Notes under the pieces: generated by a model | What the model saw: the letters and a program-made list of their open reading frames with translations, nothing else | Told to the model about the DNA's origin: nothing | The model's database searches: none | Assembly (NCBI GenBank): GCA_026709085.1 | Contig: JAPOTR010000019.1 | Coordinates: 1 to 36,638, forward strand | Direction: 5' to 3' | DNA: 36,638 nucleotides | Source of the DNA: Cyanobacteria bacterium MAG CAR3_bin_5 | GTDB taxonomy: Bacteria; Cyanobacteriota; Cyanobacteriia; PCC-6307; Cyanobiaceae | Program-made: the position numbers and the translations under genes | Part shown: piece by piece, positions 3,187 through 36,638 of the stretch | Layout of the letters: every line of letters begins with the position of its first letter | How positions within the stretch are numbered: the stretch's first letter is position 1

Positions 3187-3624
3187 ATGGCGAACCCGAG
3201 GATTCGCCCTCTTCGTGCCGGTGATGAAGCGGACTGGCGCCAGCTTGGACCCTGTATCCGAAACACTACAAAACCTCTGTGCCGGAAGGCGTCTATCAGA
3301 CCACCTGGCAGCGTCTCCTCTCCGGCGCCAAACACGAGTCCCGCGGCTTGACGGCTTTTCAGGGGAATTGTGCTGTGGGACTGGCCCACTACCTTCACTG
3401 CTGGAGTGTTGAGAATATTTGCTACCTGCAGGACTTGGTGGCGTGAGTGGATCGATGCAGTCAGGGCATTGGCCGGGCACTGATGGAAGCGGTATACGCT
3501 GCTGCTGATGGGGAAGGCTGTCCCAAGGTGTACGGGCTGACCCAGCATTAACGGGGCGGGGCCCAAACTCTATGACCGCGTCGGCGCGTTGACGCCCCTT
3601 GCTCGCTGCGACAGGAAGGGCTGA
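3187..3624 (+). pseudogene. GNAT-family N-acetyltransferase, frameshifted
   Basis: An acetyltransferase can be rebuilt only by joining frames. It begins ATG at 3187 (MANPRIRPLRAGDEADW). A shift near 3241 gives WTLYPKHYKTSVPEGVYQ continuing to YLQDLVA, which runs into a TGA at 3444. The acetyl-CoA motif then reads GIGRALMEAVYAAADGEGCP, broken again by a TAA at 3549. The tail GAGPKLYDRVGALTPLA ends at TGA 3622-3624. The order and length (about 145 residues) fit a complete small GNAT enzyme with at least two indels and one stop. It is not functional as written. A second copy of the core lies at 15654-15772. Confidence 0.8.
3435..3550 (+). repeat. Dispersed 116-bp repeat, copy A (GNAT core)
   Basis: This stretch matches 15655-15770 over 116 bases with no gaps and roughly ten mismatches. 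It covers the acetyl-CoA-binding part of the GNAT pseudogene. The similarity stops at about the same points in both places, so it behaves as a duplicated gene fragment rather than a full paralogue. Confidence 0.85.
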
Positions 3625-10798: not shown

Positions 10799-11101
10799 AT
10801 GGCAAAGAAATCGATGATTGCCCGTGACGTGAAGCGTCGCAAGTTGGCGAAGCAGTTCCGGGCCAAGCGTGAAGCACTGAAGGCCGCCTTTGTCGCTGCG
10901 GAGGATCCCATGGAAAAGCTGGAGGTCCACTTCAAGCTGCAGCAGCTTCCCCGCAACAGCGCCCCCAATCGCCAGCGCAACCGCTGCTGGGCCACCGGCA
11001 AGCCCCGTGGGGTGGTGCGTGATTTCGGGCTCTGTCGCAATCAACTGCGCCAGAAAGCCCACGCCGGGCTTCTACCCGGCGTGGTCAAATCCTCCTGGTG
11101 A
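10799..11101 (+). CDS. rpsN: 30S ribosomal protein S14
   Basis: A 100-residue S14 of the long zinc-free type: [20 protein letters not shown] at the start and the signature [20 protein letters not shown], then [12 protein letters not shown]. There is no CXXC pair, so it is the C-minus form. It assembles into the head of the 30S subunit. The ATG at 10799 follows an in-frame TTG at 10796; the ATG is preferred. A strong hairpin follows 19 bases after the stop, and the pnp leader follows that. Confidence 0.95.
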
Positions 11102-11119
11102 GACCTGGATGGCAGGTAT

Positions 11120-11143
11120 GCTTGGATTGCGCAATATCCAAGC
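11120..11143 (+). terminator. Hairpin after rpsN
   Basis: GCTTGGAT (11120-11127) pairs with ATCCAAGC (11136-11143) around an 8-base loop that is itself nearly self-complementary (tgcgcaat). There is no T-run after it, so it is either an imperfect terminator, an mRNA 3' stabiliser, or the left-end hairpin of the mobile-element relic that follows. Confidence 0.4.
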
Positions 11144-11149
11144 GCCGTC

Positions 11150-11304
11150 GCCGCTAGGCTGGTGGAGACGCAAAATCGCCCGCTGAGTTGGCAGGTTGAC
11201 GGGTTCTCCCGCGTCCGGCCACGAAGCAGGAACCCACCTGAAGGACGAGGCATGTGCCGGATCCAGGAAGGAATCCCCGACCTTCAGGACGGGGAGGAGG
11301 TCAA
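11150..11304 (+). mobile_element. IS200/IS605-type right end, omega-RNA-like relic
   Basis: The sequence ending at 11304 has the right-end form seen at cyanobacterial IS605/TnpB elements: GGAATCCCCG, a short loop, then CGGGGAGGAGGTCAA. The stem is CCCCG 11275-11279 with CGGGG 11290-11294, plus an inner CC/GG around ttca. Upstream are blocks I associate with the structured RNA at the end of such elements: CTAGGCTGGTGGAGACGCAA, CGCCCGCTGAGTTGG, CGGGTTCTCCCG and CACGAAGCAGGAACCC. No tnpA or tnpB is present: rpsN ends at 11101 and the pnp start codon is 30 bases after the right end. It is therefore an orphan end or a non-autonomous element. The family identification rests on remembered patterns and should be searched. 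Confidence 0.65.
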
Positions 11305-11334
11305 AACAAACCACAAACTGAGGAAACAACAAGC

Positions 11335-13452
11335 GTGCAAGGAGAAAGTCGGTCATTTTCCTTCGATGGACGTGAGGTTCAACTGACCATCAACCGGTTT
11401 GCCCCCCAGGCGGGTGGATCAGTGATGCTGGAGTGCAGCGGCACAGTGGTTCTTGTGACCGTTACCCGCTCGGCAGCCCGGGAGGGGGTGGATTTCCTGC
11501 CCCTCCTCTGTGACTATGAAGAGCGCATGTATGCTGCAGGGCGCATCCCCGGCAGCTATCAACGACGGGAAGGTCGCCCTCCGGAGCGGGCGATTCTCAC
11601 TTGTCGGTTGATGGATCGTCCCTTGAGGCCCCTGTTCCCCGGTTGGCTGAGGGACGACATTCAAGTGGTGGCCACATGCCAGGCCCTGGATGAGCGGATG
11701 CCCCCTGACGTCCTGGCGGTCACCGGCTCATCCATGGCAGCCCTTCTGGCGCGCCTCCCCTTTGCCGGGCCCATGGCGGCCGTGCGGGTTGGCCTCCTGG
11801 GAGACGACTTTGTCATTAACCCCAGCTTCCGGGAAATTGAGCGCAGCGATTTGGATCTGGTGGTGGCCGGCACCCCCCATGGGGTGGTCATGGTCGAGGC
11901 CGGAGCCAAGCAGCTTCCCGAGCATGACGTGATCGAGGCCATTGACTTCGGCTACGAGGCGGTGCTTGATCTCATCAAGCACCAGCAGGACATCCTCAAG
12001 GATCTGGACATTGGCCCCGTGCGGGTGGAACAGGAAACCATCAACGAGGTGGTGTTGAACTATCTGGAGACTCAATGCTCCGCCAGCATTCGCGCCGTGC
12101 TGGCGGAGTTCGATCTCAGCAAGGCGGACCGGGACAACAAGCTCAGCATCATCAAGTCCCATGTGGCCAGTGGAATCCTGAACCTGAACGAGGATCATCC
12201 CGTGCGCATCGCTGTGGCCAGAAACATCAAGCTTTTCGGCGCCAGCTACAAGGCCCTCACCAAAAAGCTGATGCGGGGCCAGATCCTCGCCGAAGGCAAG
12301 CGGGTGGATGGTCGTGGGCTGGACGAGGTGCGTCCCATTTCCTCGGCTGTGGGCATTCTGCCCCGCAAGGTGCATGGCTCGGCAGTGTTTCAGCGGGGCC
12401 TCACCCAGGTGCTCTCCGCCACCACCCTGGGCACCCCCAGTGATGCCCAGGAGTTGGATGATCTCAATCCGTCCAGCGAGAAAACCTATCTGCACCATTA
12501 CAACTTTCCTCCTTTCTCCGTAGGCGAGACCCGCCCCCTCCGTTCTCCCGGTCGTCGGGAAGTCGGCCATGGCGCTCTCGCTGAGCGGGCGCTGATACCC
12601 GTGTTGCCCCATAAGGAAGACTTCCCCTATGTCATCAGGGTGGTGTCCGAGGTGCTCAGTTCCAATGGCTCCACCTCCATGGCCTCCGTCTGCGGTAGCA
12701 CCATGGCCCTGATGGATGCCGGAGTGCCCATCAAGGCTCCCGTGGGTGGGGCAGCCATGGGGCTGATCAAGGAGGGGAGCGATGTGCGCATCCTCACGGA
12801 TATCCAGGGAATCGAGGATTTCCTGGGGGATATGGACTTCAAGGTGGCGGGCACGGAGAAAGGCATCACGGCCCTGCAAATGGACATGAAGATTACCGGC
12901 TTGCCCATGGCCACCATTGGTGAAGCCATCCACAAAGCGCAACCGGCCCGGCTGCATATCCTGGGGGAGATGCAAAAAACCATCGACAAACCCCGGGAAG
13001 ACCTGTCACCCCATGCCCCACGTCTGCTCACCTTCCGCATCAGTCCCGAGTTGATTGGCACGGTGATTGGTCCTGGTGGTCGCACCATCAAGGGCATCAC
13101 GGAACGCACCAACACCAAAATTGACATCGGCGACGAAGGCTTGGTGACCATCGCCAGCCATGACGGCACTGCTGCCCGGGAGGCTCGGCGCATTATTGAC
13201 GGCTTGACCCGCAAAGTTCATGAAGGGGAGATGTTCCGCGGAACCGTCACCCGCGTCATTCCCATTGGCGCCTTTGTGGAAATTCTCCCCGGTAAAGAAG
13301 GTATGATCCACATCTCCCAACTCTCGGAAACGCGGGTGGAGAAAGTGGATGATATTGTCAAAGTGGGGGATACGGTCACGGTGCGGGTGCGGGAAATTGA
13401 TAGTCGTGGCCGCATTAACCTCACCATCCGTGGTGTTCTCCAGGAAACGTGA
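11335..13452 (+). CDS. pnp: Polyribonucleotide nucleotidyltransferase (PNPase)
   Basis: A 705-residue phosphorolytic 3'-5' exoribonuclease and RNA-tailing enzyme. The domain order is complete: RNase PH 1 (about 10-150), the alpha-helical linker, RNase PH 2 (about 325-550, with [13 protein letters not shown] and [20 protein letters not shown] giving the catalytic Asp residues), KH (about 570-630, [11 protein letters not shown]) and S1 (about 630-703, [19 protein letters not shown]). The frame is open back to GTG 11254, but the upstream part is transposon-like; GTG 11335 starts [18 protein letters not shown] like other PNPases, with AGGA at 11321. Its leader therefore contains the IS605-like end. 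PNPase commonly autoregulates through its leader in other bacteria, so this could matter for expression. Confidence 0.93.
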
Positions 13453-15653: not shown

Positions 15654-15772
15654 TTGGTGGTGCGAGCGGATCGACGCAGTCAGGGCATTGGCCGGGCACT
15701 GATGGAAGCAGTATGCGCTGCTGCTGATGGGGAAGGCTGTCCCAAGGTGTACTGGCTGACCCAGAACTTTAG
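15654..15772 (+). pseudogene. GNAT acetyltransferase core fragment (repeat copy B)
   Basis: This is the second copy of the 116-bp GNAT core (15655-15770 matches 3435-3550). It reads GIGRALMEAVCAAADGEGCP then KVYWLTQNF before a stop. It lacks the N-terminal half and the tail seen in the other copy. It keeps two family residues that copy A has lost (W for G in YWLTQ, and no frame-breaking TAA), so copy A is not its parent. It lies upstream of the DUF2079 gene on the opposite strand, where that gene's promoter would be. Confidence 0.75.
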
Positions 15773-20289: not shown

Positions 20290-20898
20290 ATGGGAAAGGC
20301 CAAGGAAACCCATGCCGCTGCACTGGCCTTGCTGTTATCGGGCGGCGGATTCATTCCCGCTCAGGCCCATTGTCCCACACTCACTGATTCCTATTGCAAG
20401 TGTGCAATGCCGCCAGCGCCGCCGGCACTGCCGAATGCAAAGATAACACAACAACTGGAAGACCTGAGGCAAAGTCCCAGGCCGGATCCAGGAGCGCCTG
20501 GGGAAGACTGCAGCGTTGCCAAGACCCCTGCACCTGCTTCTATCCTGGCGACGGCACAGGGATTGCCGCCGCCGCCCGCCCCGCCGGCACTGCCGGAAGG
20601 AGAGGCAACACAACAACTGGAAGACCTGGGGCAGGATCCCAAGCCGGATTCAGGAGCGCCTGGCAAAGACGGAGCACTGGGGCAACAAGGCGCCACCACC
20701 GACCTGGCCATAGTCCTGGGCTCCCTGCCCAGGCCCCGTGTTGCGGGCTGGGCCGTTTCCACCTCCGTCACCAGCGTCGGGTCCGTAGCCGTGGGCCTGG
20801 CCCATCTTGTGGAGGACGAGAGCCGGTCCGTCAGCCTTGGCGTAGGCACGGACTGGAAGCACGCTCAAGGGGTGGCGGTGGTGAGTCTTCAACTCTGA
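20290..20898 (+). CDS. Candidate miniature trimeric autotransporter (YadA-like)
   Basis: A 202-residue exported protein. Residues 1-26 are a signal peptide ending IPAQA. Two similar units follow (about 39-74 and 91-127), each PPAPPALP, then TQQLEDL, then PD-GAPG-D. Residues 122-136 give five collagen-like Gly-X-Y triplets (GAP GKD GAL GQQ GAT). The last 66 residues, LAIVLGSLPRPRVAGWAVST then SVAVGLAHLVEDESRSVSLG and VGTDWKHAQGVAVVSLQL, look like four amphipathic beta strands after a short helix, as in YadA membrane anchors. If correct it is a very short type Vc surface protein. GTG 20263 is an alternative start. No passenger head domain is visible. The family call is inference from pattern. 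Confidence 0.5.
   Translation: MGKAKETHAAALALLLSGGGFIPAQAHCPTLTDSYCKCAMPPAPPALPNAKITQQLEDLRQSPRPDPGAPGEDCSVAKTPAPASILATAQGLPPPPAPPALPEGEATQQLEDLGQDPKPDSGAPGKDGALGQQGATTDLAIVLGSLPRPRVAGWAVSTSVTSVGSVAVGLAHLVEDESRSVSLGVGTDWKHAQGVAVVSLQL
20400..20665 (+). repeat. Two imperfect in-gene repeats (Pro-rich/TQQLEDL units)
   Basis: Bases from about 20406 to 20508 and from about 20565 to 20665 repeat with high similarity: gccgccggcactgccg, acacaacaactggaagacct and caggagcgcctgg occur in both, about 159 bases apart (in frame). They encode the PPAPPALP...TQQLEDL...GAPG units of the candidate autotransporter and show growth by tandem duplication. Confidence 0.75.
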
Positions 20899-35383: not shown

Positions 35384-36638
35384 GGATGGGCAGGATCAAC
35401 AGCAGCCGGAGGTGAGCATCAGCGGCGGCAGTGGGGTGACGGAGGGGGTAGCGCCAGCTTCACCCTGAGCGCCAGTCCGTCCCCGTCAGCGTCGCTGGCT
35501 GTGAGTGTGACAGTGGCACAGAGCGGGGAGTACGGGGTGAGCACGGGCCAGCGCACGGTGACGGTGTCCACTGGCGGCAGTGTTGTATTCACGGTAGGCA
35601 CGACGGACGACTCAACCGATGAGGCGGATGGATCGGTGACGGCCACCGTGGGTGGGGGCAGCGGCTACAGGGTGTCCACGTCCCAAGGAGCGGCGACGGT
35701 GAGCGTGGCGGAGATGATGTTGCGCCCACCCCGCAGGTGAGCATCAGCGGCGGCAGTGGGGTGACGGTGGGTGGGAGCGCCAGCTTCACCCTGAGCGCCA
35801 GTCCGTCCCCGTCAGCGTCGCTGGCTGTGAGTGTGACAGTGGCACAGAGCGGGGAGTACGGGGTGAGCACGGGCCAGCGCACGGTGACGGTGTCCACTGG
35901 CGGCAGTGTTGTATTCACGGTAGGCACGACGGACGACTCAACCGATGAGGCGGATGGATCGGTGACGGCCACCGTGGGTGGGGGCAGCGGCTACAGGGTG
36001 TCCACGTCCCAAGGAGCGGCGACGGTGAGCGTGGCGGAGATGATGTTGCGCCCACCCCGCAGGTGAGCATCAGCGGCGGCAGTGGGGTGACGGTGGGTGG
36101 GAGCGCCAGCTTCACCCTGAGCGCCAGTCCGTCCCCGTCAGCGTCGCTGGCTGTGAGTGTGAGCGTGTCACAGAGCGGGAAGTATGGGGTGAGTACAGGC
36201 CAGCGCACGGTGACGGTACCCACAGCGGGCAGCGTCGTGTTCACGGCAGGCGCCACGGACGACTCGACCGACGAGGCGGACGGGTCTGTGACGTCGACGG
36301 TGGGTGCCGGCAGCGGCTACAGGGTGTCCACGTCTTAAGGAGCGGCAACGGTGAACGTGCCGATAATGACGCACTGACCCCGGAGGTGAGCATCAGCAGC
36401 GACAGTGGGGGTGACGGAGGGGGTAGCGCCAGCTTCACCCTGATTGCCACGCCCTCACCAGTGGCGTCGCTGGCTGTGAGTGTGACAGTGGCGCAGAGGG
36501 GTGAGCACGGGCCAGCGCACGGTGACGATTCCCACAGGCGGCAGTGTCGTGTTCACGGTAGGCGCCACAGAGACTCGACCGATGAGGCGGACGGTTCCAT
36601 CACGGCCACGGTGGGCGGGGGCAGCGGCTACAGGGTGT
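35384..36638 (+). pseudogene. Broken Calx-beta repeat surface protein (cut by window end)
   Basis: Four tandem Calx-beta-like units, each about 107 residues: VSISGGSGVT, SASFTLSASPSPSASLAVSV, GEYGVSTGQRTVTV, DDSTDEADGSVTATVGGGSG YRVSTSQGAATVSVA. Frameshifts separate them. Unit 1 lacks one G in a G-run (near 35446). Units 1 and 2 share a 1-bp deletion in the linker (GCGGAGATGATG for an expected GCG GAC GAT GAT). Unit 3 has CAA changed to TAA (36336-36338). Unit 4 has several indels. Such domains build long secreted adhesins; no signal or sorting domain is in view. The first linker frame reads DGQDQQQPEVSIS at 35384-35422. The rest lies beyond the window. Confidence 0.75.
35412..36638 (+). repeat. 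Tandem ~325-bp repeats (four units)
   Basis: Units start at 35412, 35737, 36063 and 36386 (each at gtgagcatcagc), giving periods of 325, 326 and 323 bases; the last is cut by the window end. Units 1 and 2 are identical by eye except for about five positions near 35440-35450. Units 3 and 4 are more diverged. Confidence 0.92.

Follow-up and report, generated by a model that had tools for sequence, protein, structure and literature searches.

The segment directly in front of pnp in this cyanobacterial genome is, as judged from sequence and covariance, a true IS200/IS605 right end of the kind that carries an omega-RNA (reRNA) scaffold, and this copy is very probably immobile transposon debris without a dedicated function. 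Its identification is secure, while transcription and TnpB binding are putative and claims of a function are not supported. The window analysed here is the whole 36,638-nt stretch of contig JAPOTR010000019.1 from Cyanobacteria bacterium MAG CAR3_bin_5, in which the element occupies the gap between rpsN and pnp:

10799..11101, + strand: rpsN (ribosomal protein S14), the upstream gene.
11115..11304, + strand: left-truncated miniature IS200/IS605 insertion, absent from the empty alleles of six congeners in the alignment of filled and empty alleles; left boundary accurate to about ±4 nt.
11120..11143, + strand: palindrome GCTTGGAT...ATCCAAGC, internal, flanked by the scaffold and the lost left end.
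11146..11304, + strand: omega-RNA/reRNA scaffold, i.e. the IS605 right end, derived from the right end together with the 3' end of tnpB (105.3 bits and E 7.8e-26 with model R1; Rfam HgcC, 30.6 bits).
11270..11304, + strand: terminal right-end hairpin GGAATCCCCGACCTTCAGGACGGGGAGGAGGTCAA, preceded by GAAT and ending at the right boundary ...GTCAA; read from the sequence, with the same end in tnpB-linked copies.
11305..11320, + strand: AACAAACCACAAACTG, the natural 16-nt guide position of such an RNA (position as in PMC8612924).
11319..11326, + strand: TGAGGAAA, possible pnp ribosome-binding site; ancestral sequence, to which we assign this role by inference.
11335..13452, + strand: pnp (polynucleotide phosphorylase), GTG start at 11335.

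A first-pass annotation had read 11150-11334 as an orphan, omega-RNA-like IS605-type right end forming the leader of pnp. The insert reaches beyond this interval, starting about 35 bases further left, at about 11115. The end of the terminal hairpin at 11304 was correct and its start at 11271 was off by one base. The distance of 30 nt between the right-end boundary and the pnp GTG was reproduced exactly. As expected of an IS200/IS605 right end, the element boundary directly follows the terminal hairpin, and the GTCAA at this boundary is also the exact footprint end of two sister copies. The palindrome at 11120-11143 is probably not a terminal hairpin, because the matching stretch at another locus (L037, G002:C70) sits within an element with a left-end motif. 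Promoter and terminator scans found none on the + strand near pnp. A PreQ1-III match at 11017-11150 (E 7.5, Rfam) was taken as chance.

To identify the segment we used a covariance model, R1, of 13 aligned right ends, each following a tnpB gene or a piece of one in this genome or its relatives; the pnp copy was left out of the model. The best match in the window was 11146-11304 (105.3 bits, E 7.8e-26), and the runner-up place reached 11.1 bits. Rfam reported HgcC at 11150-11312 (30.6 bits, E 1.4e-4, under its gathering score of 50) and sot0042 marginally, so that a search at the Rfam gathering cut-offs would have overlooked this right end. These sub-threshold scores would speak for a native pnp leader hairpin, unrelated to IS605 ends and similar to them by chance. 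Such a coincidence has next to no probability and is already refuted by the R1 E-value of 8e-26, by 22 further matches in the same genome and by a clean insertion polymorphism. The right-end identification thus draws on the covariance model, the copies elsewhere and the comparison of filled with empty alleles. A covariance model of TnpB right ends and a search of the own genome, both proposed with the annotation, bear it out; the two findings it had named as fatal, no similarity to any IS605 end or a leader conserved in all relatives, were not made, since IS605 similarity is present and not all relatives have the leader.

Comparison of the rpsN-pnp site across ten congeneric genomes revealed three filled alleles (G000, the genome studied here, G009 and G002), six empty alleles and one genome without a match (G001). 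The empty leader reads ...GATGGCAAGGTTGGCAAAAC AACAAACCACAAACTGAGGAAACAACAAGCGTG, and the filled leader ...GATGGCAGG [TATGCTTGG ... GGAGGAGGTCAA] AACAAACCACAAACTGAGGAAACAACAAGCGTG. Candidatus Synechococcus spongiarum SH4 has a filled allele; LMB bulk15M and SB0662_bin_14 have empty ones. The guide-position sequence at 11305-11320 is ancestral pnp leader, nearly identical in empty alleles, and TGAGGAAA persists in the filled alleles and in almost every empty allele of the alignment. G009 and G002 are the genomes closest to G000 at the pnp locus, and this closeness fits one insertion, so that a single event probably lies behind the three filled alleles. TTGAC in one empty allele, at the place of TTGGC in most others, would agree with insertion at TGAC. 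Since TTGAC/TTGGC is separated from the right junction by five bases (AAAAC), however, this does not prove which site was the original target. Some flanking bases have gone along with the left end of the pnp copy.

Searching this genome at the DNA level returned about 15 clear copies, mostly spanning the equivalent of 11198-11304. With R1 at E <= 0.01, matches numbered 23 in this genome, 40 in G002, 30 in G005, 10 in G009, 7-10 in G006, G007 and G008, two each in G003 and G004, and none in G001. Under filters stricter than those for the congeners, the scaffold was found in only 9 of the 151 genomes of a family sample. Many tnpB-less copies retain a left-end motif (approximately GGGACACAAGCCC) 176-264 nt ahead of the right-end terminus, and several show a trace of the final 30-50 tnpB codons. 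For two copies, at loci L009 and L002, relatives preserve the exact empty site, and the comparison defines an element of 215-216 nt, inserted 3' of TGAC, ending in GTCAA and without target duplication. We took the left end from these footprints; a loose fuzzy-pattern search for left ends yielded mostly noise. Retained left ends in tnpB-less copies and the footprints of two copies together establish that the sister copies are a miniature IS200/IS605 family with target TGAC, several members of which are intact at about 216 nt. The family has many copies, varies in presence at orthologous sites and leaves no target duplications, as is expected of mobile miniature elements; the pnp copy shares the presence/absence pattern. 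In contrast to its sisters, it has no left-end motif or subterminal hairpin after TGAC, and having lost its left end it cannot move.

No tnpA or tnpB was found in the window, as the annotation had stated, which rules out an autonomous IS200/IS605 element at pnp. The lone OrfB_IS605 (PF01385) protein of this genome is encoded on another contig (C40), and the 3' end of its gene carries a right end of this type. No Y1 transposase (PF01797) protein was detected in this genome, and G008 is the sole congener of the ten to encode any. The resident tnpB lacks the first zinc-finger cysteine (QVRSVCG against QTCSACG in an intact relative), and, by eye, it has a stretch of some 25 residues out of register. 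With this cysteine lost and the stretch garbled, the gene is probably dead. No tnpB was seen in G009 (89% complete). In G002, which shares the pnp insertion, at least two TnpB frames preserve the RuvC D-E-D positions and the full set of four zinc-finger cysteines; such frames, accompanied by matching right ends, lie at L048 (G002:C149) and L054 (G002:C63). G005, with 30 scaffold matches against two OrfB_IS605 matches, one below the cut-off, is a second genome rich in orphan scaffolds.

The last 16 nt or so of the ISDra2 reRNA come from flanking DNA and serve as the guide, and the adjoining 5' TAM is identical to the site that the transposon targets (PMC8612924). A TnpB made elsewhere might bind the RNA of the pnp copy and be guided by the pnp leader, for example towards empty pnp alleles entering the cell. 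The scaffold fits the model well in three species (105-120 bits), intact-looking TnpB frames are encoded in G002, and the ISDra2 protein and RNA have also been made from separate plasmids (PMC8612924). However, the guide AACAAACCACAAACTG matches only its own locus in this genome (at most 2 mismatches), and TGAC is not beside the protospacer, where filled alleles have GGTCAA and empty alleles CAAAAC. With the tnpB of this genome damaged and none seen in G009, use in trans is improbable for two of these species and may occur in the third, G002. Overall, we regard a guide acting in trans as very improbable.

The omega-RNA fold could instead survive as a structured 5' leader tuning the stability or translation of the pnp mRNA, for example by offering a cleavage site for PNPase feedback, by analogy with E. 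coli pnp. Its position 30 nt before the start codon and the retention of the terminal hairpin in all three orthologues are consistent with such a role. Pair counting in these three orthologues gave 87.8% of cells paired, in an alignment that had been fitted to the model, and three modelled pairs changed on both sides, a number matched by 35 of 500 shuffles; given the low power of three sequences, these double changes are suggestive at most of structural constraint. Against this stand the absence of the leader from six congeners, the rarity of the scaffold in the family sample and the folding of the 259-nt leader RNA, which is no better than that of shuffles (z -0.97). Jukes-Cantor (JC) distances of the insert were 0.109 (G000-G009), 0.141 (G000-G002) and 0.122 (G009-G002), compared with 0.112, 0.174 and 0.181 at pnp fourfold sites in the same pair order. 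Two other orthologous dead copies gave 0.121/0.228/0.186 and 0.109/0.122/0.090. The insert is below the fourfold sites in two of the three comparisons (ratios of about 0.8 and 0.7), and the three alleles compared leave room for weak structural constraint. Across these filled alleles, the insert diverges approximately as fourfold sites and dead copies do, which does not support co-option as a pnp leader; neither conservation across relatives nor constraint above neutral, as expected of a regulatory leader, was observed. We therefore consider co-option unlikely.

Among the three fates that the annotation had offered, harmless debris thus fares best, given the lack of extra constraint, the six congeners without the leader, the lost left end and the damaged sole tnpB. 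Retention for PNPase control and use by a TnpB supplied elsewhere both went without positive evidence in this analysis. On the debris reading, a non-autonomous miniature element, consisting of a left end, a tnpB 3' remnant and a right end encoding the scaffold, with target TGAC, would have entered the rpsN-pnp gap in the common ancestor of three genomes of the Ca. Synechococcus spongiarum group. Deletion of the left end and a few flanking bases would then have immobilized it, and the roughly 190 nt of extra pnp upstream sequence would now be drifting, presumably without a dedicated function. It is quite unlikely that the scaffold is still folded and processed in part of this group, with the pnp mRNA doubling as an omega-RNA source or the fold setting PNPase levels.

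Other repeats were observed alongside this family. Beside right-end copies at L003 (about 1200-1300) and L011 (after 1585) lies a second, related-looking repeat, CAGGCGCTGCAGGGAGCC... with CTGAAG..CTTCAGGAATCC...CTCTCAGGGCG, which is possibly another IS605-derived subfamily. In the window, 111-nt direct repeats (3435-3545 and 15654-15764, 94% identical, 12 kb apart) perhaps belong to another dispersed family, and 100-nt direct repeats (20409-20508 and 20571-20670, 84% identical) lie within a small repetitive ORF. The contig starts with a perfect 8-nt tandem repeat, TGTGCTGG (1-55, 6.9 copies). At the other end, about 3.8 tandem copies of a 326-nt unit (35406-36638, 89% matches) run off the window and encode repeated VSISGGSGVTVGGSASFTL-type protein modules.

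The locus is a clean case of omega-RNA scaffolds arriving in front of genes. This sponge-symbiont clade has many scaffold copies per tnpB, as well as filled and empty alleles of one leader, a natural experiment on the effect of such an insertion upon the gene behind it, although the pnp copy itself looks like debris. The family target TGAC furthermore provides a TAM prediction for the intact-looking TnpB proteins. A literature search on orphan TnpB guide RNAs in MITEs, and on HgcC with tnpB, found no paper.

The family resembles the stand-alone IscB omega-RNA loci of Ktedonobacter racemifer in having many guide-RNA scaffolds per nuclease gene; those RNAs belong to IscB, whereas the present ones are of TnpB type and have transposition footprints. 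Rfam HgcC (RF00062) and sot0042 (RF02656) share with the pnp copy their layout and an almost identical terminal hairpin (GGAAUCCCCGnCCUUnAGGnCGGGGAGGAGGUCA in HgcC and the pnp copy), but the scores remain under the gathering cut-offs (30.6 against 50 and 14.3 against 88). In the ISDra2-type right end (PMC8612924), a scaffold of about 160 nt similarly overlaps the tnpB 3' end and stops at the transposon boundary, and the guide would likewise derive from flanking DNA. In contrast to ISDra2, the pnp copy has no tnpB in cis, has lost its left end and is followed by a gene start, and its family targets TGAC, not TTGAT. Also close are the PATEs of Haloquadratum, palindrome-associated elements from IS605-type transposons (PMC3119063), which are likewise transposase-free, core-deleted, multicopy IS605 derivatives, although here the host is a cyanobacterium and the pnp copy has been shortened further and cannot move. 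The pnp copy is thus a truncated relic of an already known, PATE/MITE-like kind of element that bears an omega-RNA.
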